From Clostridiales bacterium (GTDB taxonomy: Bacteria > Bacillota > Clostridia > Oscillospirales > Oscillospiraceae): a DNA stretch of 45,363 nt. The first letter of the stretch is position 1, and each line of letters opens with the position of its first letter. Below are positions 27,236 through 41,026 of the stretch, piece by piece. The translations under genes were made by a program, and so were the position numbers. The notes under the pieces were generated by a model. That model made no database searches, was not told the origin of the DNA, and worked only from the letters and a program-made list of their open reading frames with translations. The stretch spans positions 1 to 45,363 of the forward strand of contig JAJPXY010000107.1 in the NCBI GenBank assembly GCA_021205205.1, read 5' to 3'.

Positions 27236-27880
27236 ATGAACGCATTGAATGAAGCCATCTCCAAAATTGGCGTTGTTCCCGTCATTAAGCTCACCAACCC
27301 CGAGCGGGATGCCGCTCCTCTGGCCAAGGCCCTCTGCGCTGGCGACGTGCCGGTGGCCGAGGTCACCTTCCGTGCGGCCGGTGCGGACAAGGCCATCGCC
27401 CTGATGAAGGAAGCCTGCCCCGACATGATCGTGGGCGCGGGCACCGTCACCAACACCGACCAAATCGACGCCACCATCGCCGCTGGCGGTCAGTTCATCG
27501 TTACCCCCGGCTTCGATGCCGAGCTGGTGGCCTATGCCCAGTCCAAGGACATTCCCATCTATCCCGGCTGCACCACCCCCACCGACTACCATGCGGCGTT
27601 GAAATTCGGCCTGGAGCTGATCAAGTTCTTCCCCGCGGAGCAGTCCGGCGGCCTGGCTAAAATCAAGTCCATGAGCGCCCCCTTCCCCATGTTCAAGGTC
27701 ATGCCCACCGGCGGCATCTCCCTGAAGAACCTGGCCGAGTACCTGAAGAGCCCGGTCATCGCGGCCTGCGGCGGCTCCTATATGGTCACCGCCGACCTGA
27801 TCGAGAACCAGAAGTGGGACGAGATCACCGCTCTGTGCGTTCAGTCCCGGGACATCGTGAAGGAAGTCCGCAATGGCTGA
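27236..27880 (+). CDS. eda: KDPG aldolase (2-dehydro-3-deoxy-phosphogluconate aldolase)
   Basis: This 214-residue class I aldolase cleaves KDPG to pyruvate and glyceraldehyde-3-phosphate. The general-acid glutamate is in VAEVTFR (E42) and the Schiff-base lysine in LELIKFFPAE (K130). The phosphate-binding glycine motif is MPTGGIS, with ACGGSYMV near the C-terminus. AAAGGAG precedes the ATG. It completes the hexuronate pathway together with the KDG kinase two genes downstream. It overlaps the next gene by eight bases. 4-hydroxy-2-oxoglutarate aldolase activity is a common second activity in the family. Confidence 0.94.
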   Translation: MNALNEAISKIGVVPVIKLTNPERDAAPLAKALCAGDVPVAEVTFRAAGADKAIALMKEACPDMIVGAGTVTNTDQIDATIAAGGQFIVTPGFDAELVAYAQSKDIPIYPGCTTPTDYHAALKFGLELIKFFPAEQSGGLAKIKSMSAPFPMFKVMPTGGISLKNLAEYLKSPVIAACGGSYMVTADLIENQKWDEITALCVQSRDIVKEVRNG

Positions 27881-28217
27881 TTACACTCTGGCCCATGTGG
27901 GCCTGAACGCCGCCAACCGGGAGGAGGCCAAACAGGCCGCCGAGATGTTTGAGCTGCTCTTTGGCTTGAAGGTGGAGGAGGGCAACAGTTCCTTCTTCGC
28001 CGGTGGGGTCATCGAAACCATGAAGGAGCCGTACAAGGGCACCCACGGCCACATCGCCATCGGCACATCGGACGTTCCCGCCGCCAAGGCCGAGCTGGAA
28101 GCCCGAGGCTTCACCTTCGACCCCTCCACTGCCAAGTACCGGAAGGACGGCGTGCTCAACGCGATCTACCTCTCAGAGGAGATTTTGGGCTTCGCCGTCC
28201 ACCTGGTGGGCAAATAA
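27873..28217 (+). CDS. VOC (glyoxalase/bleomycin-resistance fold) protein coupled to eda
   Basis: This single-domain protein of 114 residues begins with the VOC pattern LAHVGLNAANREEAKQAAEMFELLFGL. HIAIGTSDVPAAKAELEARGFTF follows as the second beta-alpha unit, and it ends LSEEILGFAVHLVGK. The start codon lies inside the end of eda (eight-base overlap), so translation is tightly coupled. VOC proteins use a paired beta-alpha fold, often with a metal, for isomerase, lyase or dioxygenase chemistry. The coupling suggests it acts on a 2-keto-3-deoxy sugar acid or protects against methylglyoxal-type by-products. Neither is shown by the sequence. Confidence 0.85.
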   Translation: MADYTLAHVGLNAANREEAKQAAEMFELLFGLKVEEGNSSFFAGGVIETMKEPYKGTHGHIAIGTSDVPAAKAELEARGFTFDPSTAKYRKDGVLNAIYLSEEILGFAVHLVGK

Positions 28218-28256
28218 GCAAATTATAGCGTTAAAACAAGTTAGGAGACTGTATAC

Positions 28257-29279
28257 ATGGCGAAAATTGTAACATTTGGCGAAATTATGCTGCGCCTCGC
28301 CCCCAACGGGTATTACCGCTTCTTCCAGAACGACCAGATGCAGGCCACCTTCGGCGGCGGCGAGGCCAACGTGGCCGTCTCCCTGGCCAACTATGGCATG
28401 GACGTTTCCTTTGTCACCAAGCTGCCCACCCACGCCATCGGCCAGGCCGCTGTCAACTCTCTGCGCTACTTCGGCGTGGACACCAGCGACATCGTCCGGG
28501 GCGGCGACCGCGTGGGCATCTACTACCTGGAGAAGGGCGCTTCCCAGCGCGGCTCCGTGTGCATCTATGACCGCGCCCACTCCGCCATCCAGGAAGCCGC
28601 TCCCTCCGACTTCGACTGGGACAAGATTTTCGACGGCGCTGAGTGGTTCCACTTCACCGGCATCACTCCGGCCCTCGGCCCCAACGTGGTGGAGATCTGC
28701 CGGGACGCCTGCAAGGCCGCCAAGGCCCACGGCGTCAAGATCTCCTGCGACCTGAACTACCGCGGCAAGCTGTGGACCCGCGCCGAGGCCCGGGCGGCCA
28801 TGACCGACCTGTGCCAGTATGTGGACGTCTGCATCTCCAACGAGGAGGACGCCAAGGGCGTGTTCGGCATCGAGGCCGAGAACACCGACATCTACGGCGG
28901 CAAGCTGAACAAAGAGGGCTACAAGTCCGTGGCCAAGCAACTGGCCGACAAGTTTGGCTTCGAAAAGGTCGCCATCACCCTGCGTACCTCCATCTCCGCC
29001 AGCGACAACGACTGGGCTGCCATGCTCTATGACGGCACCGACTACTGCTTCTCCAAGGAGTATCACCTGCGCATCACCGACCGCGTGGGCGGCGGCGACA
29101 GCTTCGGCGGCGGCCTGATTTACGCTCTGATGAACGGCAAGTCCACCCAGGACGCCGTGGAGTTCGCTGTAGCGGCTTCCGCCTTGAAGCACTCCGTCGA
29201 GGGTGACTACAACCGTGTTACCGTCTCCGAGGTGGAGAAGCTCTCCGGCGGCGACGGCTCCGGCCGCGTCCAGAGATAA
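28257..29279 (+). CDS. kdgK: 2-keto-3-deoxygluconate kinase (PfkB family)
   Basis: This 340-residue sugar kinase phosphorylates KDG to KDPG. It begins MAKIVTFGEIMLRLAPNGYYRFFQ with the substrate-side motif FGGGEANVAVSLANYG. PfkB signature 2 with the catalytic aspartate is DRVGGGDSFGGGLIYAL. CDLNYRGKLW and VCISNEEDAKGVFG are typical of KdgK-like members. It is the last gene of the hexuronate operon and is followed by a strong terminator. Fructokinase or ribokinase activity cannot be excluded from sequence alone, but the neighbours make KDG by far the likeliest substrate. Confidence 0.9.
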   Translation: MAKIVTFGEIMLRLAPNGYYRFFQNDQMQATFGGGEANVAVSLANYGMDVSFVTKLPTHAIGQAAVNSLRYFGVDTSDIVRGGDRVGIYYLEKGASQRGSVCIYDRAHSAIQEAAPSDFDWDKIFDGAEWFHFTGITPALGPNVVEICRDACKAAKAHGVKISCDLNYRGKLWTRAEARAAMTDLCQYVDVCISNEEDAKGVFGIEAENTDIYGGKLNKEGYKSVAKQLADKFGFEKVAITLRTSISASDNDWAAMLYDGTDYCFSKEYHLRITDRVGGGDSFGGGLIYALMNGKSTQDAVEFAVAASALKHSVEGDYNRVTVSEVEKLSGGDGSGRVQR

Positions 29280-29452: not shown

Positions 29453-30106
29453 TTACAGCGCCTTGAACGCCTGTACTGCCGCCGCCTTGTCCTCTGCGCA
29501 AAAAACTGCGCTGCCAGCCACCAGCATGGTGGCCCCGGCCTCCACGCACTGGGGGCCGGTGGTGTCGGCTTTGACGCCGCCGTCCACAGAGAGGATGGGG
29601 TTCAGGCCCCGGCGCTGGCACTCTGCCCGGAGCTTGCGCAGCTTGTCCAGCGCGCTGGTCTGGAAGGGCTGCCCGCCGTGGCCCGGGGTCACGCCCATCA
29701 CCAGCACCAGGGAGAGGCCGTCCAGGTAGGGGAACACCGTCTCGGCAGGGGTGTTGGGGTTGATGGCCAGCCCCACCCCGCAGCCAAACGCCCGGACCGC
29801 GGCAATGGTGGCCCGGATGTTGTCGCTGGCCTCGATGTGGAAGGTGATGCAGTTGGCTCCTGCATCCACGAACTCCTTGACATAGGCCAGAGGGTTGGTG
29901 ATCATCAGATGTACGTCAAAATAGGCGTCGGGCAGGGCCTTCCGCAGGCCCTCCAGCACCGGCAGGCCGAAACTCAGGTTGTCCACGAAGTGGCCGTCCA
30001 TCACGTCGAAGTGGATCATGTCCGCACCGGCGTCCAGCACCTCTTTGCAGTCCGCGCCCAGCCGGGCGAAGTCCGCCGACAGGACGGAAGGGCTAACTTT
30101 TGTCAT
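29453..30106 (-). CDS. rpe: Ribulose-phosphate 3-epimerase family protein
   Basis: This 217-residue TIM-barrel enzyme starts at MTKVSPSVLSADF (30106) after GGAGGAGG; the track start is 71 codons too long. Family motifs are MIHFDVMDGHFVDNLSFG with a metal-ligand His and Asp, FDVHLMITNP, MGVTPGHGGQPF and SVDGGVKADT. RPE interconverts ribulose-5-phosphate and xylulose-5-phosphate. It ends the leftward ascorbate/pentulose cluster. Ascorbate decarboxylase UlaD shares the same barrel superfamily, but the motifs here are those of RPE. A specialised pentulose epimerase is possible because a housekeeping copy may exist elsewhere. Confidence 0.88.
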   Translation of the reverse strand: MTKVSPSVLSADFARLGADCKEVLDAGADMIHFDVMDGHFVDNLSFGLPVLEGLRKALPDAYFDVHLMITNPLAYVKEFVDAGANCITFHIEASDNIRATIAAVRAFGCGVGLAINPNTPAETVFPYLDGLSLVLVMGVTPGHGGQPFQTSALDKLRKLRAECQRRGLNPILSVDGGVKADTTGPQCVEAGATMLVAGSAVFCAEDKAAAVQAFKAL

Positions 30107-30127
30107 GGGGAGCCTCCTCCTCTTTTG

Positions 30128-30165
30128 AAAAATATCCCCCTCCCCGGAGACGGCGGAGGGGGATG
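30128..30165 (-). terminator. Hairpin between transketolase and rpe
   Basis: Read leftward, ATCCCCCTCC and GGAGGGGGAT arms flank a GC-rich loop and are followed by ATTTTTC. It would reduce read-through into rpe, so rpe may be expressed at a lower level than the transketolase genes. Confidence 0.65.
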
Positions 30166-30183: not shown

Positions 30184-31125
30184 TTATTTGCCCAGCATGG
30201 CCTTGGCCTGAGCCACGATGCTGTCCGCGCAGAGGCCGAAGGCTTTCAGCAGAGCGGCGGCGGGGCCGGAGTGACCGAACTCGTCGTTGACGCCGATGCG
30301 CTTGACGGGGGTGGGGCACTGCTCAGAGAGCACGCCGCACACGGCCTCGCCCAGGCCGCCGATGATGCTGTGCTCCTCGACGGCGACGATCTTGCCGCAC
30401 TCCTTGGCGGCGGCCAGCACACAGGCCTCATCCAGGGGCTTGATGGTGGCCATGTTGATGACCCGGGCGGAAATGCCCTCGGCAGCCAGGGCCTTGCCAG
30501 CCTCGATGGCCTCGGGGACCATGATGCCGGTGGCGATGATGGCTACGTCGGTGCCGTCCTGGAGGACTTCGGCCTTGCCGATCTGGAACTCGTAGCCTTC
30601 CTCGTGGAACACGGGGGTGGCAGCGCGGCCAAAGCGCATATAGACGGGGCCGGTCATCTCATAGGCAGCCTTGACCATGGCGCGGGCCTCCACGTCGTCG
30701 GAGGGGCACATAACGGTCATGCCGGGGATGGTGCGCATGAGGGCAAAGTCCTCGCAGCACTGGTGGGACGCACCGTCCTCGCCCACGGAGATGCCGCCGT
30801 GGGTGGCGCCGATCTTCGCGTTCAGGTGGGGATAGCCGATGGTGTTGCGAACCTGCTCATAGGCCCGGCCGGCGGCGAACATGGCGAAGGTGGAGGCAAA
30901 GGGGACCAGACCCATGGTGGACAGGCCCGCGGCCACGTCGATCATGTTGGCCTCGGCAATGCCACAGTCAAAATGGCGGTCGGGATAGGCTTTCTGGAAG
31001 ATACCGGTCTTGGTAGCACCGGCCAGGTCGGCGTCCAGCACGACCAGGTTCTCAGCGGTAGCGCCCAGCTCTTTCAGGGCGTTGCCGTAGCTGTCACGGG
31101 TAGCGACTTTCTTGATTTCAGCCAT
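30184..31125 (-). CDS. Transketolase, C-terminal subunit
   Basis: This 313-residue protein corresponds to the pyrimidine-binding and C-terminal domains of transketolase. Landmarks are VLDADLAGATKTGIFQ, DCGIAEANMIDVAAGLSTMG with the TPP-activating glutamate, THGGISVGEDGASHQCCEDFALMRTIPGM and EEHSIIGGLGEAVC. Together with the N-terminal subunit encoded three bases upstream it forms a split transketolase that moves two-carbon units between pentose phosphates. The split form is widespread in Firmicutes and archaea. Location in the ascorbate cluster suggests it processes xylulose-5-phosphate. Confidence 0.93.
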   Translation of the reverse strand: MAEIKKVATRDSYGNALKELGATAENLVVLDADLAGATKTGIFQKAYPDRHFDCGIAEANMIDVAAGLSTMGLVPFASTFAMFAAGRAYEQVRNTIGYPHLNAKIGATHGGISVGEDGASHQCCEDFALMRTIPGMTVMCPSDDVEARAMVKAAYEMTGPVYMRFGRAATPVFHEEGYEFQIGKAEVLQDGTDVAIIATGIMVPEAIEAGKALAAEGISARVINMATIKPLDEACVLAAAKECGKIVAVEEHSIIGGLGEAVCGVLSEQCPTPVKRIGVNDEFGHSGPAAALLKAFGLCADSIVAQAKAMLGK

Positions 31126-31128
31126 GAT

Positions 31129-31980
31129 TTACGCCTCCTCGATTTCCTTGCGGGCGGCCTCCAGTTCGGCCATGCCCTGTGCGTACTCTGCGTCGTTGGG
31201 GGCCTTGCCGTGCCAGCCGGCCTTGTCCTCCATATAGGAGACGCCCTTGCCCTTGGTGGTCTTCATCAGGATCGCGGTGGGCTTGCCGGAACCCTTGTTG
31301 GCGTGGAACTGTTCAAAGGCGCGCTCGATGTCATCGAAGCAGTGGCCGTTGATCTGCACCACATCGCAGCCGAAGGAGGCGAACTTCTCGTCCACGGGGG
31401 CGGTGTTCATAACGTCGCAGGTGCGGCCGTCGATTTGCAGCCCGTTCAGGTCCACGATGATGCACAGGTTGTCCAGCTTATAGTGGGCGGCAAACATGGT
31501 AGCCTCCCAGATCTGGCCCTCGGCCAGCTCGCCGTCACCCAGCAGGGAATAGACGTTGATGTCCTTGCCCAGGTACTTAGCGCCCTTGGCCATGCCCGCG
31601 GCGGCGGAGAGGCCCTGGCCCAGAGAGCCGGTGGACATATCCACGCCGGGGACGGTGTTCATGTTGGGGTGGCCCTGGAGGTAGGAGTCGATGTGCCGCA
31701 GGGTGGGCAGGTCCTCCACGGGGAAGTAGCCCCGCAGCGCCAGCGCGCTATACAGGCCGGGGGCGGTGTGACCCTTGGAGAGGACGAAGCGGTCCCGGTC
31801 CGGGTTCTTGGGGTCCTTGGGGTCGATGCGCATTTCCTTGAAATACAGATAGGTGAACATATCGGCGGCGGAGAGGCTGCCGCCGGGGTGACCGGCCTTG
31901 GCGCCGTGGGTGCTGGTGAGAACACCTTCCCGCACGCTGACGGCAGTCAGCTTCAGGGCTTTCTTTTCAGCAGAAGTCAT
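31129..31980 (-). CDS. Transketolase, N-terminal (TPP-binding) subunit
   Basis: This 283-residue protein holds the thiamine-diphosphate pyrophosphate-binding domain: AGHPGGSLSAADMFTYLY, LSKGHTAPGLYSALALRG, TGSLGQGLSAAAGMAKGAKYLG and the metal-binding GDGELAEGQIWEATMFAA ending in the DLNGLQIDG segment. A start with AAGGAGG nearby is clear. It lies 15 bases downstream of the ulaF/araD gene and is followed at once by the C-terminal subunit, so all three are one transcript. Substrate specificity resides partly in the other subunit. Confidence 0.93.
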   Translation of the reverse strand: MTSAEKKALKLTAVSVREGVLTSTHGAKAGHPGGSLSAADMFTYLYFKEMRIDPKDPKNPDRDRFVLSKGHTAPGLYSALALRGYFPVEDLPTLRHIDSYLQGHPNMNTVPGVDMSTGSLGQGLSAAAGMAKGAKYLGKDINVYSLLGDGELAEGQIWEATMFAAHYKLDNLCIIVDLNGLQIDGRTCDVMNTAPVDEKFASFGCDVVQINGHCFDDIERAFEQFHANKGSGKPTAILMKTTKGKGVSYMEDKAGWHGKAPNDAEYAQGMAELEAARKEIEEA

Positions 31981-31995
31981 GTTGGGTGAACCTCC

Positions 31996-32697
31996 TTATT
32001 TCTTAGCCTGGCCGTAATAGGCGTTGGGGCCATGCTTACGCATAAAGTGCTTGTCCTGGATGCACTGAGGGGCGGGACCCACCTTGGGGTTGATCATCTC
32101 AGTGAACATACTCATCTTGGCCACTTCCTCCAGCACCACGGAGTGATAGACGGCCTGGGCGGCGTCCTTGCCCCAGGTGAAGGGGCCGTGGTTGCGGCAG
32201 ATGACCGCCGGGACATAGGCTGGGTTGATGTTGCGGGCGCGGAAGGTCTCCACAATGACGTTGCCGGTGTTGGTTTCGTAGTCCTCCTCGATCTCCTCGG
32301 GGGTCAGGTTCCGGGCGCAGGGGATGGGGCCGTAGAAGTAGTCGGCGTGGGTGGTGCCGTAGGCGGGGATGTCCCGGCCGGCCTGTGCCCAGGCCACGGC
32401 GTGGGGGCTGTGGGTGTGGACAATGCCGCCGATCTCCGGGAAGGCATTGTAGAGGATCAGGTGGGTCTTGGTGTCGGAGGAGGGGTTCATCTCGCCCTCC
32501 ACCTTGTTGCCCTGGAGGTCCATGACCACCAGGTCCTCCGGCTTCAGCTCGTCATACTCCACGCCGGAGGGCTTGATGACAAACAGGCCCTTCTCCCGGT
32601 CGATGCCGCTGACGTTGCCCCAGGTATAGGTGACCAGGTTGCGCCTGGGCAGCTCCATGTTGGCTTCGTAAACTTGGACTTTCAATTCTTCCAGCAT
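31996..32697 (-). CDS. ulaF: L-ribulose-5-phosphate 4-epimerase
   Basis: This 233-residue class II aldolase-fold enzyme converts L-ribulose-5-phosphate to D-xylulose-5-phosphate. The start [21 protein letters not shown] follows AGGAGGAG; the track start adds 15 codons. Motifs are [22 protein letters not shown], the zinc ligands in [26 protein letters not shown] and [10 protein letters not shown]. AraD (arabinose) and UlaF/SgaE (ascorbate) are the same family and cannot be told apart by motif. The ulaE, ulaG and PTS genes nearby favour UlaF, and no araA or araB is visible. Confidence 0.92.
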
Positions 32698-32914: not shown

Positions 32915-33979
32915 TCACTCCGTGACCGTGTACAGAGCCACCTCGTTGATCTCCCGGTTGGTACCGACGATCACGTCCTGCCCCGCGGAGTTGACAAAGT
33001 GCATGGCGTTGGCGCAGCCGGTGTTGCGGTCGATGAACTCGGTCTTATAGGTGCCGGCCTCGGCGTCCCAGGTGATGGCAATGGTGTCCTTGGTGCCCTT
33101 GCGCCAGCCGACGATCCAGGTGGGCTTGCCCAGAATGGTGTCGGCCCAGGTGGCGTGGAGCATTTCGGTGTCGGCCTCCGGCGCGGGATATTTCCACTGG
33201 GGGATGTAGTGGTCGTGCTCATTCAGGTGGTAGATGGTCAGGCTGTTGCCGTGGAAACCGCTGATAACGCCCAGCTCCGGCTTGCCGTCGCCGTCGAAAT
33301 CCACCAGCACGGAGTCGCTGGTGGGGATGTCCAACACCTTGGTAATGACCCAGTCGCCGCCGGGGACCATGGGGGGATCGAAGATAAAGGTGCCTTCCTC
33401 GCAGCCAACCAGCGCCGCGTCGTGACCGCCGTGCTGGAACACGCAGAAGCCGTGGTTCTTCAACATATCGTCCTGGAGCAGGGTCATCTCCAGCTGGTTG
33501 TCGTCGTTAAAGGCGGAGAGGTCCTTGGGCAGCACCGCGCCGTAGACCTCACCGGGGAAGCGGAAGTCGTTCTTGTACTCATGGCCGGATTTCAGGCAGC
33601 AGGCAATGAGGTAGTTGACGCCGCCCCGGTTCAGGATGCCGAACCGATGGACAAAGGGAATGTGGAGCAGGGTGCGGATCTCCCAGTCGTTCTCCGCCTT
33701 GGGAGTGGCGATGACGATGCTGGCGTCCGCGCCGTCGTTGGGACCGTAGAACTTGCGGGTGGACAGGAACTGTCCGTCGGAGCCGGGAACCTGGAGCATG
33801 GTCATGACGCCGCCAGGGCCTTCCCAGACGGTCTCCAGTTTAGTGCCGTCCTCAGAGAACAGATAGCAGGGGTCCTGCTTTTCGGCGGCCACCAGGAAGC
33901 AGGGCTTGCCGTGGTAGTTCAGGCGGGTGGTGGCGTAGCATTTGGTCAGGTTGGCAATGACTTTTTTCTCGACCTTCAT
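32915..33979 (-). CDS. Unrecognised cytoplasmic protein, probable beta-propeller
   Basis: This 354-residue protein has no signal peptide and no membrane helix, and I cannot assign it to a named family. It shows repeating blade-like stretches: CFLVAAEKQDPCYLF, VMTMLQVPGSDGQFLSTRKF, RFGILNRGGVNYLIACC, SVLVDFDGDGKPELGVISG and TWIVGWRKGTKDTIAITW. DFDGDGKPELG has the DxDGDG calcium-loop form of FG-GAP/VCBS propellers. The start follows AGGAGG. It lies between ulaE and ulaF on the same strand, exactly where a missing ascorbate-pathway enzyme would fit. A lactonase-, epimerase- or sensor-like sugar-acid role is inference only. Confidence 0.75.
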   Translation of the reverse strand: MKVEKKVIANLTKCYATTRLNYHGKPCFLVAAEKQDPCYLFSEDGTKLETVWEGPGGVMTMLQVPGSDGQFLSTRKFYGPNDGADASIVIATPKAENDWEIRTLLHIPFVHRFGILNRGGVNYLIACCLKSGHEYKNDFRFPGEVYGAVLPKDLSAFNDDNQLEMTLLQDDMLKNHGFCVFQHGGHDAALVGCEEGTFIFDPPMVPGGDWVITKVLDIPTSDSVLVDFDGDGKPELGVISGFHGNSLTIYHLNEHDHYIPQWKYPAPEADTEMLHATWADTILGKPTWIVGWRKGTKDTIAITWDAEAGTYKTEFIDRNTGCANAMHFVNSAGQDVIVGTNREINEVALYTVTE

Positions 33980-33996
33980 AATGTACCTCCTGTAAT

Positions 33997-34249: not shown

Positions 34250-35092
34250 TTAGGATTGTTTATCCAGGATGGCGCTCATGCTGGAGCAGGCGAACTTGAT
34301 GTCGTCCTTCCAGGCGGGGCTGCCCACGTCCCACATCTCGGTGACGTAGCGGCGGATGCCCATGCTCCACGCCTTGGCGATGACCGCCTCGAAATCCACA
34401 TGACCGGTCAGGAAGGGGATCTCCCGGAACTTGCCGGGGACCGTCTCTTTGAGGTGCAGGGCCACGATGTGGTCCCGGCCGGTCTCCAGGTCGTCCAGCA
34501 CGCTGGTCCCGTAGGTTTTGGCGGCGTTGGTCAGGTTGCCGGAGTCGGGGTAGACACCCAGATAGGGGTTGTCGATAAGGTTGACGTACTTCATGGCCTT
34601 CTCAGTGGTGTTCATGAACGGGGTCTCCATGGTCTCGAAGCCCAGCAGGATGCCCTTGGCGGAGGCCATCAGCGTGGCTTTGGCCAGGTTCTCCCGGAAC
34701 AGCCGCTCGCTTTCGGCGGTGCCTTCCTCATAATAGACGTCGTAACCGGCCAGCTGGATGGTGCGGATGCCCAGGTCGTCGGCCAGCTGGATGGCCTTCT
34801 CCATGATGTCCATGCTCCTGGCCCGGACAGCGGGGTCGGCGGAGCCGAAGGGGTACTTCCGATGGCCGGAGAGGCACATGCTGCGGATGGGAATGCCCAC
34901 TTCGTACATGGTCCTGACCAGGTCCAGCCGCTCCTGGGCGGTCCACTCCAGCCGGGCCAGCTTGTCGTCGGTCTCGTCGATGCTGATCTCGACGAAATCG
35001 TAGCCGCACTCTTTGGCGCACTCCAGCTTGGCGCGCCAGTCCATGGTCTTGGGCATGGCCTTCTCGTACAGTCCGATAGCGTATGGTTTCAT
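34250..35092 (-). CDS. ulaE: L-ribulose-5-phosphate 3-epimerase (UlaE/SgaU)
   Basis: This 280-residue AP-endonuclease-2-fold (xylose isomerase-like TIM barrel) enzyme converts L-xylulose-5-phosphate to L-ribulose-5-phosphate. Family sequence is clear: YAIGLYEKAMPKTMDW, DFVEISIDETDDKLARLEW, SMCLSGHRKYPFGS, TIQLAGYDVYYE, GFETMETPFMNT with a metal-ligand glutamate, GVYPDSGNLTNA with an aspartate and VALHLKETVPGKFRE. It is the first leftward gene of the divergent ula cluster. Three 12-bp-spaced GTTCG repeats lie just downstream of its promoter and upstream of its start. Confidence 0.94.
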   Translation of the reverse strand: MKPYAIGLYEKAMPKTMDWRAKLECAKECGYDFVEISIDETDDKLARLEWTAQERLDLVRTMYEVGIPIRSMCLSGHRKYPFGSADPAVRARSMDIMEKAIQLADDLGIRTIQLAGYDVYYEEGTAESERLFRENLAKATLMASAKGILLGFETMETPFMNTTEKAMKYVNLIDNPYLGVYPDSGNLTNAAKTYGTSVLDDLETGRDHIVALHLKETVPGKFREIPFLTGHVDFEAVIAKAWSMGIRRYVTEMWDVGSPAWKDDIKFACSSMSAILDKQS

Positions 35093-35237
35093 AAGCGGTC
35101 ATCCTTCCTTCTCGTCATTTTGTCCTGATGTTTGGGCCGGTAAAAGTGACATTATTGCGGTTTAAAGTTGCAGAAAAGCCGGAGAAACCGGGGTTTTAAT
35201 CGGTTTTGGTCATTTTAACGAAAAGCGCACATAAAAT

Positions 35238-35266
35238 CGAACAATTAAACGAACGTTAAAACGAAC
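35238..35266. promoter_or_regulatory. Three direct CGAAC repeats (12-bp period), probable DeoR operator for ulaE
   Basis: CGAAC occurs at 35238, 35250 and 35262, each preceded by A/T-rich bases. In the direction of ulaE transcription this reads GTTCG three times, beginning about 30 bases after the predicted transcription start. Known DeoR-family operators, such as that of GlpR, contain TTCG/CGAA half-sites, and a DeoR gene lies in the divergent operon. The same GTTCG motif precedes ulaG (35622-35636). Confidence 0.6.
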
Positions 35267-35302
35267 ACAAAAAGCGACGGATTTTCTGCGCCAGCTATTT
35301 GT

Positions 35303-35331
35303 ATTATATACGGTCATATTTGCAATTTCAA
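35303..35331 (-). promoter_or_regulatory. Promoter of ulaE
   Basis: Read leftward: TTGAAA, 17 bases, TATAAT. It leaves a ~200-base leader before ulaE that contains the CGAAC repeats. Confidence 0.75.
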
Positions 35332-35566
35332 GGGCTTTTTTCGTTTTTTCTCATTTCTTTCTTGAAAATGGCGTCATAAAATTTCGTCGTTTTGCCAAAC
35401 GCAGAACAGCTTAAATCAAAAATAAAACATATAAAAGTTAGAAATTAGACGTTATATGGTCTTATTTTTATTCTAATTTGTAAAAATGTTTTCGTCAAAT
35501 TCCTGAATCTCGGCCTCAAAAGTCCATTTTGGTGCTGAGATTCAAAAAATTTGAACCATAAAACAC

Positions 35567-35595
35567 TTGCAATTTGAGCGATTTTACGTTATAGT
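35567..35595 (+). promoter_or_regulatory. Promoter of the ulaG-PTS operon
   Basis: TTGCAA, 17 bases, TATAGT, about 60 bases upstream of ulaG. The AT-rich stretch 35340-35560 between the two divergent promoters contains no gene and may hold further regulatory sites that I could not define. Confidence 0.7.
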
Positions 35596-35621
35596 TTGAT
35601 TCACGGAAGCAAAAACATATA

Positions 35622-35636
35622 TTCGTCATCTGTTCG
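35622..35636 (+). promoter_or_regulatory. Two GTTCG-like repeats in the ulaG leader, probable DeoR operator
   Basis: ATTCGTCATCTGTTCG places two TTCG motifs 11 bases apart, about 20 bases after the predicted start of transcription and just before the AAAGGAGGAG ribosome binding site. Orientation relative to transcription is the same as for the ulaE repeats. Confidence 0.45.
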
Positions 35637-35655
35637 CATCAAAAGGAGGAGCATT

Positions 35656-36759
35656 ATGAGCAAAGTATCTGAAATGTCCCGCGAAAAATGGATCATGAGC
35701 ACCTTCCCCGAGTGGGGGACCTGGCTGGTGGAGGACATCGAGAACGAAGTCGTCCAGCCGGGTAACGTGGCCATGTGGTGGCTTGGCTGCACCGGCATCT
35801 GGTTCAAGACCCCCGGCGGCGCCAACATCAGCATCGACCTGTGGTGCGGCAACGGCAAGCGCACCCACGGCGACGGCAAGATGAAGGTGGGCCACCAGAT
35901 GGCCAACATGTGCGGCGGCCGCGCCATGCAGCCCAACCTGCGCAACGTCCCCTTCGTCATCGACCCCTTCGCCTTCAAGCAGGTGGACGCCGTTCTGGCC
36001 ACCCACTACCATCAGGACCATATGTCCGCCGAGTGGGCCGCCCATGTGCTCCAGAGCGGCATGACCACCACCGACGACAAGGGCAACGTGATCCCCGTCC
36101 CCTTCATCGGCCCCAAGAAGTCCGTGGAGACCTGGATCAAATGGGGTGTCCCGGCAGACCGTTGCATCACCGTCAAGCCCGGCGACAGCATCAAGATTAA
36201 GGACATCGAGATCATCGCCCTGGACAGCTTTGACCGCACCTGCATCGTCACCACCGATTCCACCGGCCCCGACCGGGAGGAGCTGACCGGCGTCTGCCCC
36301 ACCGATATGGACGACAAGGCCGTCAACTACCTGGTCAAGACCCCCGGCGGCAACATCTATCACTCCGGCGACTCCCACTTCTCCATCTACTTCGCCAAGC
36401 ACGGCAAGGACTACGACATCGACGTGGCCTTCGGCTCCTTCGGCGAGAACCCCATCGGTATGCAGGACAAGATGACCTCCATCGACGTGCTGCGTATGGC
36501 CGAGAACCTCCAGTGCAAGGTGGTCATTCCCATCCACTGGGATGTGTGGACCAACTTCCAGGCCGACTGCGAGGAGATCAAGCTGCTCTACGACTTCAAG
36601 AAGGACCGCAACGAGTACAAGTTCCATCCCTTCTTCTGGCAGGTGGGCGGCAAGTACGTCTATCCCCAGGATAAGGACAAGATCTATTACCACCATCGCC
36701 GCGGCTTCGAGGACTGCTTCGAGGCGCCCCAGAACATCCCCTATCGTTCCTGCCTGTAA
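35656..36759 (+). CDS. ulaG: L-ascorbate-6-phosphate lactonase
   Basis: This 367-residue metallo-beta-lactamase-fold enzyme hydrolyses L-ascorbate-6-phosphate to 3-keto-L-gulonate-6-phosphate in the cytosol. The start [24 protein letters not shown] follows AAAGGAGGAG; the track start is 20 codons upstream. The metal motif is [13 protein letters not shown], with further ligands in [11 protein letters not shown] and [28 protein letters not shown] and [12 protein letters not shown] are typical UlaG stretches. It heads the operon with the ascorbate PTS, matching the enteric gene order. Confidence 0.96.
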
Positions 36760-36780: not shown

Positions 36781-37260
36781 ATGGCCACTGTTTTACAGAC
36801 GATCGTTGAGAAGAAGCACTACAAGTTCATCGACGAGCCTGTCACCTGGCAGGAGGCGGTCCGCCTGAGCACCGAGTCCCTGGTCGCCGACGGCAGCGTG
36901 GACGCCGACTACTATCAGCAGATCGTGGACTGCATCACCAAGTACGGCCCCTACGTGGTCTTTGACCACTACGTGGCCATGCCCCACTCCCAGGAGAACG
37001 CCGCCGGTGTCCACAAAACCGGCATCGGCTTCATGGTGTCCAAGCAGGTCGTGGACTTCGGCGAGGACGAGGACGGCGAGAAGAAGGAAGCCAAGCTGTT
37101 CTTCACCCTGGCCGCCTGCAACCCCGACGAGCACCTGAACAACATCCAGCAGCTGATGGGCGTGTTCACCAACGAGGAGCTGCTGGACGCCCTGATGGAG
37201 GCCAACACCCCCGAGGACATCCTGGCCGCCGAAGCCAAGTATCCCTGCGAAGAGATGTAA
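36781..37260 (+). CDS. ulaC: PTS ascorbate-type IIA component
   Basis: This 159-residue cytoplasmic phosphocarrier of the mannitol/fructose-like IIA fold has its phosphorylated histidine in YVAMPHSQEN (about H68). The surrounding WQEAVRLSTESLVADGSVDADYYQQIVDCI and LFFTLAACNPDEHLNNIQQLMGVF are typical. It receives phosphate from HPr and passes it to the IIB cysteine. It lies 21 bases after ulaG and 42 bases before the IIC gene. The ascorbate class is assigned from ulaG and IIC next door. Confidence 0.93.
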   Translation: MATVLQTIVEKKHYKFIDEPVTWQEAVRLSTESLVADGSVDADYYQQIVDCITKYGPYVVFDHYVAMPHSQENAAGVHKTGIGFMVSKQVVDFGEDEDGEKKEAKLFFTLAACNPDEHLNNIQQLMGVFTNEELLDALMEANTPEDILAAEAKYPCEEM

Positions 37261-37302: not shown

Positions 37303-38814
37303 ATGATCGTTCTTAATGTCCTGAGCGCGATTTGGACCTTCTTTGCCACCTACGTGTTGCAGAAGGCCCCCTACATGGTCGGTTTCCTGACCTTGCTGGG
37401 CTACTGCCTGATGGGCAAGCCCTGGTACGACACCCTGGGCGGCACCCTGAAAGCCATCATCGGTATGCTGATCCTGAACGCCGGTTCCTCCGGTCTGACC
37501 AGCACCTTCCGTCCCATCCTGGCCGGTTTGAAGGACCGCTTCAATCTGACCGCCGCCGTCATTGACCCCTACTATGGTCAGAACGCCGTCACCGCCGGTG
37601 TGGAGGAGGTCTTTGGCAAGGGCTTCTCCCAGGCGATGACCCTGCTGCTCATCGCATTTATCGTCAACATCCTTTTGGTCCGCTTCAATAAAATCACCAA
37701 GTGCCGCGCGCTGTTCACCACCGGTCACGTCCAGGTGCAGCAGGCTGCCACCGCTTACTGGCTGATCATGTTCGCCCTGCCCGGCCTGCTGGACAACAAC
37801 ACCGCGCTGCTCATCGTCATGTCCGTCGTCCTGGGCGCTTACTGGGCTGTCGGTGCCAACCTGACCATCAAGCCCATGCAGGAGCTGTCCGGGGGCGCTG
37901 GCTTCGCCATCGCTCACCAGCAGATGTTCGGCATCCGCCTGAGCGCGTTCCTGGCCGATAAGTTCTTCGGCAAGGACGGCGGCAAGCATGAAGAGCGCGA
38001 GATCAAGAAGGTCGGTGAGCTGGAAATGCCCGGTTTCTTCTCCATCTTCAACGAGAACATGGTTTGTACCGCCATCCTGATGACCGTCTTCTTCGGCGCC
38101 ATCATGGCCATCATCGGCAAGCCCTACTTCGTCGGCACCGGCGATATCGAAGAGAGCACCAACTTCGTGTGGTACTGCTTCGACACCTCCCTGAACTTCG
38201 CCGTCTACCTGGCCATCCTCCAGCTGGGCGTCCGTACCTTCGTTACTGAGCTGACCGCTTCCTTCCAGGGCATCGCGGACAAGTTGCTGCCCTCCTCCGT
38301 CCCCGGTGTGGACTGCGCGGTCTGCTTCGGTTTCGGCGACGCCAACGCTGTCACCTTCGGCTTCCTGGCCGGTCTGGTGGGCCAGATCATCGCTATCCTG
38401 GTCTTGATTTTCGCCGGTTCCCCTGTTATTATTATTTGTGGTTTCGTGCCCGTGTTCTTCGACAACGCCACCATGGGTCTGGTCGCCAACGACAAGGGCG
38501 GCTTGAAGGCCTGCCTCATCATCCCCTTCATCGCCGGACTTGTTGAGGTCTTTGGCGCAGCCATCATCGCCGGTTGGTGCGGTCTGGCTGACTACGGCGG
38601 ATACCTGGGTATGTTCGACTGGGATACCGTCTGGCCTGTGTTCACCTTCCTGATGAGATACCTGGGCTACATCGGCGTGGCGCTGGTGGTTATCATCCTG
38701 CTGGCCATCCCGCAGATCGAGTACCGCATGGACCCCGAGGGCTACTTCCTCATCACCGAGGACTACGACGCCTATCTGGAGCACGTAGAAGCGAAAAAGG
38801 CTGCCAGAAAGTGA
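37303..38814 (+). CDS. ulaA: PTS ascorbate transporter IIC component
   Basis: This 503-residue integral membrane permease has about ten or more hydrophobic segments. Family landmarks are APYMVGFLTLLGYCLMGKPW, GMLILNAGSSGLTSTFRPIL, YYGQNAVTA and GLVGQIIAILVLIF. It imports L-ascorbate coupled to phosphorylation. GAGAGG precedes the ATG. It is slightly longer than the enteric protein, with a hydrophilic C-terminal tail (YLEHVEAKKAARK). The IIB gene follows only after a 221-base gap containing a large hairpin, unusual for subunits of one transporter. Confidence 0.93.
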   Translation: MIVLNVLSAIWTFFATYVLQKAPYMVGFLTLLGYCLMGKPWYDTLGGTLKAIIGMLILNAGSSGLTSTFRPILAGLKDRFNLTAAVIDPYYGQNAVTAGVEEVFGKGFSQAMTLLLIAFIVNILLVRFNKITKCRALFTTGHVQVQQAATAYWLIMFALPGLLDNNTALLIVMSVVLGAYWAVGANLTIKPMQELSGGAGFAIAHQQMFGIRLSAFLADKFFGKDGGKHEEREIKKVGELEMPGFFSIFNENMVCTAILMTVFFGAIMAIIGKPYFVGTGDIEESTNFVWYCFDTSLNFAVYLAILQLGVRTFVTELTASFQGIADKLLPSSVPGVDCAVCFGFGDANAVTFGFLAGLVGQIIAILVLIFAGSPVIIICGFVPVFFDNATMGLVANDKGGLKACLIIPFIAGLVEVFGAAIIAGWCGLADYGGYLGMFDWDTVWPVFTFLMRYLGYIGVALVVIILLAIPQIEYRMDPEGYFLITEDYDAYLEHVEAKKAARK

Positions 38815-39035: not shown

Positions 39036-39344
39036 ATGGCAAAACTGGACAACAAGAAACTGATGGTCTGCTGCGCCAACGGCGCCGGTTCCTCCCTGAT
39101 GATGAAGATGGCCGTGCAGAAGGTCATGGACAAGTACAAGATCAAGCCCGCCGACCTGCACCACTGCGCCGTCTCCGATGGCAAGACCGCCGCGATGAAC
39201 TACGACGTGGTTTTCTGCGCCCGCAACTTCGCAAAGACCTTCGCCGATGCCGAGAAGAAGGGCGTCACCGTCATTCCTCTGCGCAACGTCATGTCCAACG
39301 TGGAGATCGAGAAGGCTCTGAAAGAGCGGGATCTGCTGGACTGA
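39036..39344 (+). CDS. ulaB: PTS ascorbate-type IIB component
   Basis: This 102-residue cytoplasmic domain begins MAKLDNKKLMVCCANGAGSSLMMKM. The phosphorylated cysteine is C13 of the CANGAGSS P-loop, which transfers phosphate to ascorbate on IIC. VFCARNFAKTF and VTVIPLRNVMSNVEIEKAL are typical of the lactose/ascorbate IIB group. AAAGGAG lies upstream. It is separated from IIC by a structured gap but is followed by the operon terminator, so it is likely expressed from the same or a processed transcript. Confidence 0.93.
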   Translation: MAKLDNKKLMVCCANGAGSSLMMKMAVQKVMDKYKIKPADLHHCAVSDGKTAAMNYDVVFCARNFAKTFADAEKKGVTVIPLRNVMSNVEIEKALKERDLLD

Positions 39345-39519: not shown

Positions 39520-40224
39520 ATGATAAAAGTAATCATTTTCGATATTGATAACACGCTGTATAGCTTTGACACCGCCCACCAGGTCGCCTTTGGCGCGTTG
39601 CTAGACTACGCGCAGCGGGAGCTGGGCGTCGCTCCCGACGAGCTCCGGCGGCTCCACAGGGAGATGAACCAGGAGCTGAAGGGGCGCATGGGCAGCTGCG
39701 CCGCCATCCACAACCGGCTCATCCGCTACCAGAACATTCTGGAGCGGCTGGGCAAGCCCCTCGGCCACGCCCTGCGGATGTCCGACCTGTATTGGAACAC
39801 CCTCCTGGACGCGATGGAGCCATCTCCCGGGGCGGCGGAGACAGTGCGGCAGCTGAAAGCACAAGGGCTGAAAATCGGCGTGGGGACAGATATGACCGCC
39901 CGAATGCAGTTTATCAAGCTGGAGCGGCTGGGTCTGCTGCCCTATATCGACTTTCTGGTCTCCAGCGAGGAGGCCCAGGCGGAGAAGCCCGCTCCGGCCC
40001 TGTTCGCCCGCTGCGTGGAAAAGGCGGGCGTCCGCCCGGCGGAGTGCCTTTTCGTGGGGGACAATCTGGAAAAAGACGTACACGGCGCACAGGCGGCGGG
40101 GCTGTACGCCCTGTGGTATCGGCCCCAGGGCGCGGCGGAGGAAACGGCAGAGCCGTTTGTCACCACCCTGCGCCAGCTGCCCGGCCTCCTGGCCGCCGAC
40201 GGAGAGATTGAGAGAAGGAGCTGA
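39520..40224 (+). CDS. HAD-family hydrolase next to the DeoR regulator
   Basis: This 234-residue HAD phosphatase begins MIKVIIFDIDNTLYSFD (motif I DIDNT). Motif II is GVGTDMTARMQ, the lysine is in EEAQAEKPAPALFARC, and motif IV is CLFVGDNLEKDVHGAQAAGL. A helical cap lies at about residues 15-85. The track start is 53 codons too long and runs through the upstream terminator. It ends four bases before the deoR start, so the two are co-transcribed. It may dephosphorylate a sugar phosphate that accumulates during ascorbate or pentulose use; that is inference from position. Confidence 0.87.
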   Translation: MIKVIIFDIDNTLYSFDTAHQVAFGALLDYAQRELGVAPDELRRLHREMNQELKGRMGSCAAIHNRLIRYQNILERLGKPLGHALRMSDLYWNTLLDAMEPSPGAAETVRQLKAQGLKIGVGTDMTARMQFIKLERLGLLPYIDFLVSSEEAQAEKPAPALFARCVEKAGVRPAECLFVGDNLEKDVHGAQAAGLYALWYRPQGAAEETAEPFVTTLRQLPGLLAADGEIERRS

Positions 40225-40228
40225 GAAC

Positions 40229-41026
40229 ATGAAACGAGATCGCAAGTCCGTGGACGAGCGGCAGAACCGCATCCTCCAGATGATCCGGGAACAGGGCGAG
40301 GTCAATGTGGAGGATCTGGCAAAGACGTTCGACATTTCCCTGATGACCGTCCGTCGGGACCTGCAACATTTGGAGGAGCAGAAGCTCATCAGCCGCTTCT
40401 ACGGCGGCGCCACTGTGGTCAACCAGCGCCATGTGATGACCCGGGAAGAGGAGATCTCCATGTATCGGGACCTGATCTCCAAGTACGCGGCCCAGTTCGT
40501 GGAGGACGGGGACCATCTGTTCATTAACGGCAGCCGCACGGCGCTGAATATGCTGGAATATGTGGAGCGGCAGCACGTCTCTGTCATGACCAACAACGGC
40601 TGGGCCGTTGGGAAGCAGTTCCCCAAGGGCGTGAACGTGACCCTGACCGGCGGCGAGGTGCGCAGCCACATCATGATTGGCGACTACGTCATGCGCAACC
40701 TGTTGAACATCACGGCGGACAAGACCTTCCTGGGCTGCTCCGCCGTCTACGAGAACGGGGAGTTCCGCTACGACATCCCCACGGAGATCGGAATCAACGA
40801 GGCCATGATCACCCGCACCACCAAGGAGCTGTATATCCTGGCGGACCACACCAAAATCATGAGCGGCAGCGCCCACCAGAACGAGTATGGCAGCTGCACC
40901 TACGAGGGGTCCTGGACTCTCATCACCGACGAGCTGGCCAACGCCACCACCATAGAGCGTCTCCGCCAGACCGGGCGAAAGGTGATTCAGGTCCACGCGG
41001 AGCGGTCAGAGGAGGAGGCAGGCTGA
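40229..41026 (+). CDS. DeoR/GlpR-family transcriptional regulator
   Basis: This 265-residue sugar-sensing repressor has the N-terminal DeoR helix-turn-helix: RQNRILQMIREQGEVNVEDLAKTFDISLMTVRRDLQHLEEQKLI followed by SRFYGGATV. The C-terminal sensor domain (about residues 80-250) includes LFINGSRTALNMLEYV, LTGGEVRSH, DKTFLGCSAVYENGEF and ELYILADHTKIM, as in phosphosugar-binding DeoR proteins. The start MKRDRK is set by GAAGGAG upstream. The nearest plausible targets are the divergent ulaE/ulaG promoters with their GTTCG repeats. The effector could be ascorbate-6-phosphate or a pentulose phosphate, by analogy with UlaR. Confidence 0.9.
   Translation: MKRDRKSVDERQNRILQMIREQGEVNVEDLAKTFDISLMTVRRDLQHLEEQKLISRFYGGATVVNQRHVMTREEEISMYRDLISKYAAQFVEDGDHLFINGSRTALNMLEYVERQHVSVMTNNGWAVGKQFPKGVNVTLTGGEVRSHIMIGDYVMRNLLNITADKTFLGCSAVYENGEFRYDIPTEIGINEAMITRTTKELYILADHTKIMSGSAHQNEYGSCTYEGSWTLITDELANATTIERLRQTGRKVIQVHAERSEEEAG

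Follow-up and report, generated by a model that had tools for sequence, protein, structure and literature searches.

The window, i.e. the whole stretch of 45,363 nucleotides analysed here, encodes among genes for ascorbate utilisation (ula) a protein of 354 residues (P0002) that is probably a cytoplasmic seven-bladed β-propeller enzyme replacing UlaD in anaerobic vitamin-C catabolism and that, as deduced from its context, would decarboxylate 3-keto-L-gulonate 6-phosphate. The protein is uncharacterised, enzyme-like and tightly linked to the ula genes; the genomic evidence is strong and the activity a prediction, and replacement of UlaD is its most likely role. What the analysis shows is the predicted fold, the lack of UlaD, the one-to-one co-occurrence with UlaG, the exchange of the two genes in one operon slot, and the conserved His, Arg, Glu, Asn and Tyr residues on one face of the propeller. 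On balance, a β-propeller decarboxylase seems to have displaced the (β/α)8-barrel UlaD in the sampled ascorbate-using Clostridia, the two having been exchanged more than once.

The features of the locus are the following:

32915–33979, minus strand: propeller protein P0002, 354 aa, predicted non-orthologous UlaD replacement (from ORF, fold and co-occurrence)
33980–33994, minus strand: Shine–Dalgarno region, AGGAGG, just 5' of the propeller ATG
33284–33301, minus strand: DFDGDG calcium-type loop, codons 227–232, A–B loop of blade 5
34250–35092, minus strand: ulaE, L-ribulose-5-phosphate 3-epimerase family by the best curated model, 46% identity to E. coli UlaE
31996–32697, minus strand: ulaF, L-ribulose-5-phosphate 4-epimerase (4.7e-121), 61% identity to E. 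coli UlaF
31129–31980, minus strand: transketolase N-terminal half (sequence reading), kept beside ulaF in many loci
30184–31125, minus strand: transketolase C-terminal half (sequence reading and locus comparison)
29453–30160, minus strand: rpe-like ribulose-phosphate 3-epimerase (sequence reading and locus comparison)
35093–35655, no strand: AT-rich spacer separating the divergent ulaE and ulaG, probably regulatory (judged by its letters only)
35656–36759, plus strand: ulaG, L-ascorbate-6-phosphate lactonase (NCBIfam equivalog, E 1.7e-181, 603 bits against a cut-off of 306)
36781–37260, plus strand: ascorbate-type PTS IIA, ulaC-like
37303–38814, plus strand: ascorbate-type PTS IIC, ulaA-like
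39036–39344, plus strand: PTS IIB, ulaB-like
40157–41026, plus strand: DeoR-family regulator, possible local regulator (AgaR model best; UlaR model 71 bits against a cut-off of 244)

On the minus strand, ulaE lies upstream of the propeller gene, with ulaF, the two transketolase halves and the rpe-like gene downstream; running divergently are ulaG, PTS IIA, IIC and IIB, a HAD phosphatase and the DeoR-type regulator. Beside the ula genes, positions 27236–29279 read as a KDPG aldolase, a glyoxalase-like protein and a KDG kinase, pointing to sugar-acid catabolism. The propeller ORF starts with ATG behind a strong ribosome-binding site (ACAGGAGGTACATT-ATG); together with the matches of the flanking genes, this agrees with the soluble 354-residue protein that had been placed between ulaE and ulaF by the sequence-only reading.

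Concerning the relatives, a single search of GTDB representatives returned at least 79 further loci encoding proteins with 49–97% identity, mostly in metagenome-assembled genomes of Oscillospiraceae and Lachnospiraceae, many of them from gut or rumen samples; no plasmid-borne relative was found. Since these relatives share the same N-terminus, the propeller gene may be taken as a real one. The retrieved piece carries at least one ula or linked gene in 73 of the 79 loci, usually ulaG, the PTS genes, ulaE and ulaF; on the pieces of the other six (L022, L024, L039, L043, L055 and L076), some of them short, the propeller is without any ula gene. Most propeller loci retain both ulaE and ulaF, and frequently transketolase as well; a DeoR-type regulator is already present in most of them, and the only recurrent gene without an assigned role across the compared loci is the propeller itself. 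The neighbourhoods are not random, contrary to what would have refuted the first interpretation.

It should be noted that the uptake genes vary. The PTS is absent from L118 (L118:9403-12914), which has a ribose-type ABC transporter instead, as well as from L124 (L124:10231-13619), where three genes read as a tripartite tricarboxylate (TTT) transporter; in both, the propeller is still found beside or near ulaG, so that it appears to belong to the core pathway and not to uptake. An FGGY kinase is present in two further propeller loci (L119:3420-4895 and L120:4791-6272). These non-PTS or FGGY-kinase loci suggest uptake of unphosphorylated ascorbate or of a different lactone. An epimerase closest to IolO (5-keto-L-gluconate epimerase) apparently replaces ulaE at L124:7599-8417, and the substrate of that locus, the UlaG of which is on a long branch, may differ. 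A large OYE-type flavoenzyme occurs in or beside the ula operon at L118:4157-6154 and L143:2690-4738, the former matching BaiCD/bilirubin-reductase models below the cut-off and the latter resembling the former by its N-terminus only. Inspection of the sequences also indicated PTS Enzyme I- and HPr-like genes in or beside ula operons (L126:12310-14309, L125:6466-6741 and L146:1190-2944), which look like a dedicated phosphotransfer chain in some of the operons. Finally, two loci outside the window's class, L144 and L145 (genomes G442 and G743), have ulaG up to 89% identical to that of the window, which suggests that the propeller-type ula operon was recently acquired there by horizontal transfer.

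The AlphaFold2 model (30-row alignment; pLDDT 92.8, pTM 0.91) contains 28 strands in seven four-stranded blades, as assigned by inspection, the N-terminal strand completing the last blade. Residues 2–9 already form this closing strand, in accordance with the lack of an export signal read from the sequence alone. The blades proposed at that stage are present in the predicted structure, but the repeated sequence motifs are not, FG-GAP being recognisable in one blade only and below the Pfam gathering score: the matches reach 19.2 bits against 26.9 (FG-GAP_3) and 14.9 against 22.1, i.e. both models tested, PF13517 and PF01839, stay below their cut-offs, which none of the ten family members compared exceeded. 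The calcium-like DxDGDG loop was borne out as DFDGDG at residues 227–232, kept in relatives down to ~30% identity and followed shortly by an invariant E235. As in FG-GAP/VCBS propellers, the predicted seven-bladed fold carries a DxDxDG loop between strands A and B, in blade 5 only. Beyond the weak FG-GAP matches, no curated-family match was obtained in Pfam, NCBIfam or, by sequence, the PDB; the UlaD/OMPDC models NF009832 and PF00215 did not match the sequence, and no (β/α)8 barrel is seen in the all-β prediction. A secreted or surface FG-GAP adhesin was ruled out by the missing signal sequence, the single domain and the conserved metabolic operon context.

With regard to the fold search, Foldseek against the PDB placed the LGI1 EPTP propellers at the top by E-value, while the highest query-normalised TM-score (0.78–0.79, at ~10% identity) belonged to aldos-2-ulose dehydratase (AUDH; 4a7k/4a7z). 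The outcome is a confident propeller with no confident match to a family of unrelated role. One family member (L068) weakly matched the AUDH-propeller profile PF22301 (E 0.016, 15.4 bits against a cut-off of 27). Conservation was mapped for residues kept to ~30% identity, placed by strand order as a topological assignment rather than by coordinates. On this map, a charged, His or amide residue is conserved at 18 positions in at least 90% of the rows. Thirteen of these map to the top side (E33, H111, R112, D138, N175, H176, D222, H243, H275, R293, N324, N341 and E346), and the bottom has the other five, namely the four of the calcium-type loop D227-D229-D231-E235 and a lysine. The conserved His, Arg, Glu and Asn residues gathered on one face resemble an active site, and the DxDGDG loop on the opposite face probably binds a structural Ca2+.

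The route from ascorbate 6-phosphate in E. coli comprises UlaG, UlaD, UlaE and UlaF (PMC3219644). The window's genome, which is 100% complete, has ulaG, the PTS, ulaE and ulaF, and its only OMPDC-superfamily gene is, judged by sequence, pyrF, encoding orotidine-5'-phosphate decarboxylase. The E. coli UlaD used as a query matched nothing in any of the 80 loci. Among 24 further propeller genomes, 19 have a single OMPDC-superfamily match, mostly of a size or profile coverage fitting pyrF, and five genomes have several. A hidden UlaD was considered for the extra matches in G005 and G009; the two that were typed, L088 and L090, are 3-hexulose-6-phosphate synthase, and further matches occur in G005, G009, G010, G012 and G015. 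It is also conceivable that the step is done by a decarboxylase from a third family whose gene lies elsewhere in the genome. The literature searched yielded no paper on the propeller protein or on a UlaD-less ula operon.

Of 391 Clostridia genomes drawn evenly, 13 have UlaG, and the propeller profile finds exactly these 13, so that presence agrees in 13/13 and absence in 378/378; one genome with two UlaGs has a pair of propellers as well. No UlaD match at E ≤ 0.001 occurs in any of the 13. The chance of two identical 13-genome sets is ~1.5e-24 if the genomes were independent, which they are not, phylogeny being ignored. Taken with the 73 linked loci, this one-to-one relation sustains the view that the propeller, cytoplasmic and of an unrecognised family, truly belongs to an ascorbate operon. 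The phylum-wide draw added six UlaG genomes outside the class Clostridia: four with the propeller and without a full-length UlaD, two of these showing a fragmentary UlaD match (1e-4 to 3e-5), and two with a full UlaD (>300 bits) and without the propeller. One propeller genome (G533) and one UlaD genome (G661) belong to a single family. A draw of 400 genomes from the class of G653 contained UlaG in 17.

When 35 ulaG regions were read directly, 17 had the propeller, 16 had ulaD, two had neither and none had both (p ~4e-8 for the exclusion if the regions were independent, phylogeny being ignored); all 17 of the propeller genomes or regions surveyed for it were without a full-length UlaD. The two regions with neither gene (L164 and L169) are Streptococcus-like and apparently have no DEF genes near ulaG. 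A genome-wide check of 18 genomes, comprising the 16 in which ulaD lies next to ulaG and the two with neither gene, revealed a single exception, the Streptococcus-like G821, where ulaD is in the ula locus and a solitary propeller gene lies at another site. This orphan (L181:9256-10332; G821:C14:28764-29774) has no ula gene nearby and may either serve some other purpose or have been acquired recently. The presence of both proteins in G821 and the six loci without a ula gene on the retrieved piece count against a replacement of UlaD.

The exchange can be followed in the gene orders. One locus (L142) reads ulaG-IIA-IIC-IIB-ulaD-ulaE-ulaF and another (L121) ulaG-IIA-IIC-IIB-propeller-ulaF-ulaE. 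Two loci of the same family both encode a protein of ~700 residues, which in L141 has an ulaC-like part and is followed by ulaD, ulaE and ulaF, and in L143 is followed by IIB, IIC, ulaG, the propeller, ulaE and ulaF. The propeller can thus occupy the slot of ulaD, and often does. When the propeller and ulaD labels were mapped on a rapid tree built from 37 UlaG sequences, four switches were required, of which well-supported branches impose at least two; the long branches of some rows make the exact figure uncertain. The lack of UlaD and its one-for-one substitution in the operon together point to the decarboxylation of 3-keto-L-gulonate 6-phosphate, the step after opening of the lactone. Of the initial proposal of an enzyme or sensor specific to ascorbate or a related lactone, the role in the ascorbate pathway holds, but the wording was too vague, and the evidence favours decarboxylation past the lactone over lactone binding or sensing.

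Such an enzyme would take the product of UlaG, 3-keto-L-gulonate 6-phosphate, which is a β-keto acid, and, probably with the help of a metal, would release CO2 and L-xylulose 5-phosphate, the substrate of UlaE. The candidate site on the top face would comprise Y15, E33, H111, R112, H176, D222, H243, H275, R293, N324 and N341; more tentatively, a metal or a His/Arg site there might polarise the C3 ketone, and conserved Arg residues could hold the phosphate. Loss of CO2 would give the enediolate of L-xylulose 5-phosphate, to be then reprotonated. In AUDH, a catalytic zinc in the propeller reportedly polarises a ketone, which served only as a lead; the invariant His residues of P0002 are no more than suggestive of such a zinc site. 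We know of no β-propeller decarboxylase.

β-Keto acids can lose CO2 without an enzyme. The propeller might bind a pathway metabolite and act in the ula pathway as sensor, regulator or scaffold, with the decarboxylation spontaneous, as general chemistry would allow, or catalysed by an unlinked and unrelated enzyme. VCBS-type propellers often serve as binding modules (PMC8023676), and the six loci and the G821 orphan away from ula genes would fit such a role. We nevertheless regard it as rather unlikely: a regulator need not exclude UlaD, yet no ulaG region of the 35 has both and the 17 propeller genomes or regions are all without a full-length UlaD; moreover, most loci already have their DeoR-type regulator, and the conserved set on one face has the look of an active site.

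The fold match raises the question whether the propeller carries out another reaction on the UlaG product, such as an AUDH-like dehydration or isomerisation, in an ascorbate route different from that of E. coli. AUDH is a dehydratase/isomerase, its top query-normalised TM-score is joined by the weak sub-threshold profile match of one member, and some loci have extra enzymes, e.g. the OYE-type flavoenzyme or the FGGY kinase. A dehydrated product, however, would not feed UlaE (acting on L-xylulose 5-phosphate) and UlaF (acting on L-ribulose 5-phosphate), both kept in most propeller loci, and it is exactly ulaD that the propeller replaces, which renders this reading improbable. The propeller might further assist UlaG or some different early step, e.g. 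as a ketone/enol isomerase acting before a hidden decarboxylase. This is very improbable despite the perfect pairing with UlaG in Clostridia and the direct adjacency to ulaG in several loci (L118, L123 and L143): in E. coli and in 16 further ulaG regions, ulaG is accompanied by UlaD without a propeller next to it, so that UlaG generally needs none, and the propeller loci share no second gene that lacks an explanation.

If the propeller indeed replaces UlaD, a hole would be filled in the degradation of vitamin C by gut and rumen Clostridia, the pathway of which would be called incomplete by an annotation that finds no UlaD. A family without a curated model would gain a function and the propellers a new catalytic activity, two unrelated folds being exchanged for one decarboxylation.

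In comparison with the known systems, P0002 shares with UlaD the operon slot, the co-occurrence with UlaG, UlaE and UlaF, and probably the reaction; there is, however, no sequence relationship, UlaD being a (β/α)8 barrel and P0002 a seven-bladed propeller. The propeller domain of AUDH (4a7k/4a7z, PF22301) is its best query-normalised fold match and AUDH acts on keto-sugars, but the identity is ~10%, P0002 has neither cupin nor lectin domains, and AUDH eliminates water, not CO2. With the FG-GAP/VCBS propellers (PF13517, PF01839) it has in common one DxDGDG calcium-type loop and weak profile matches, whereas it falls below the curated cut-offs, has no signal peptide, consists of a single domain and carries the motif in one blade. 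As for the E. coli ula regulon, the window has homologues of ulaG, ulaABC, ulaE and ulaF, and differs in having the propeller for ulaD, an added transketolase and another gene order.
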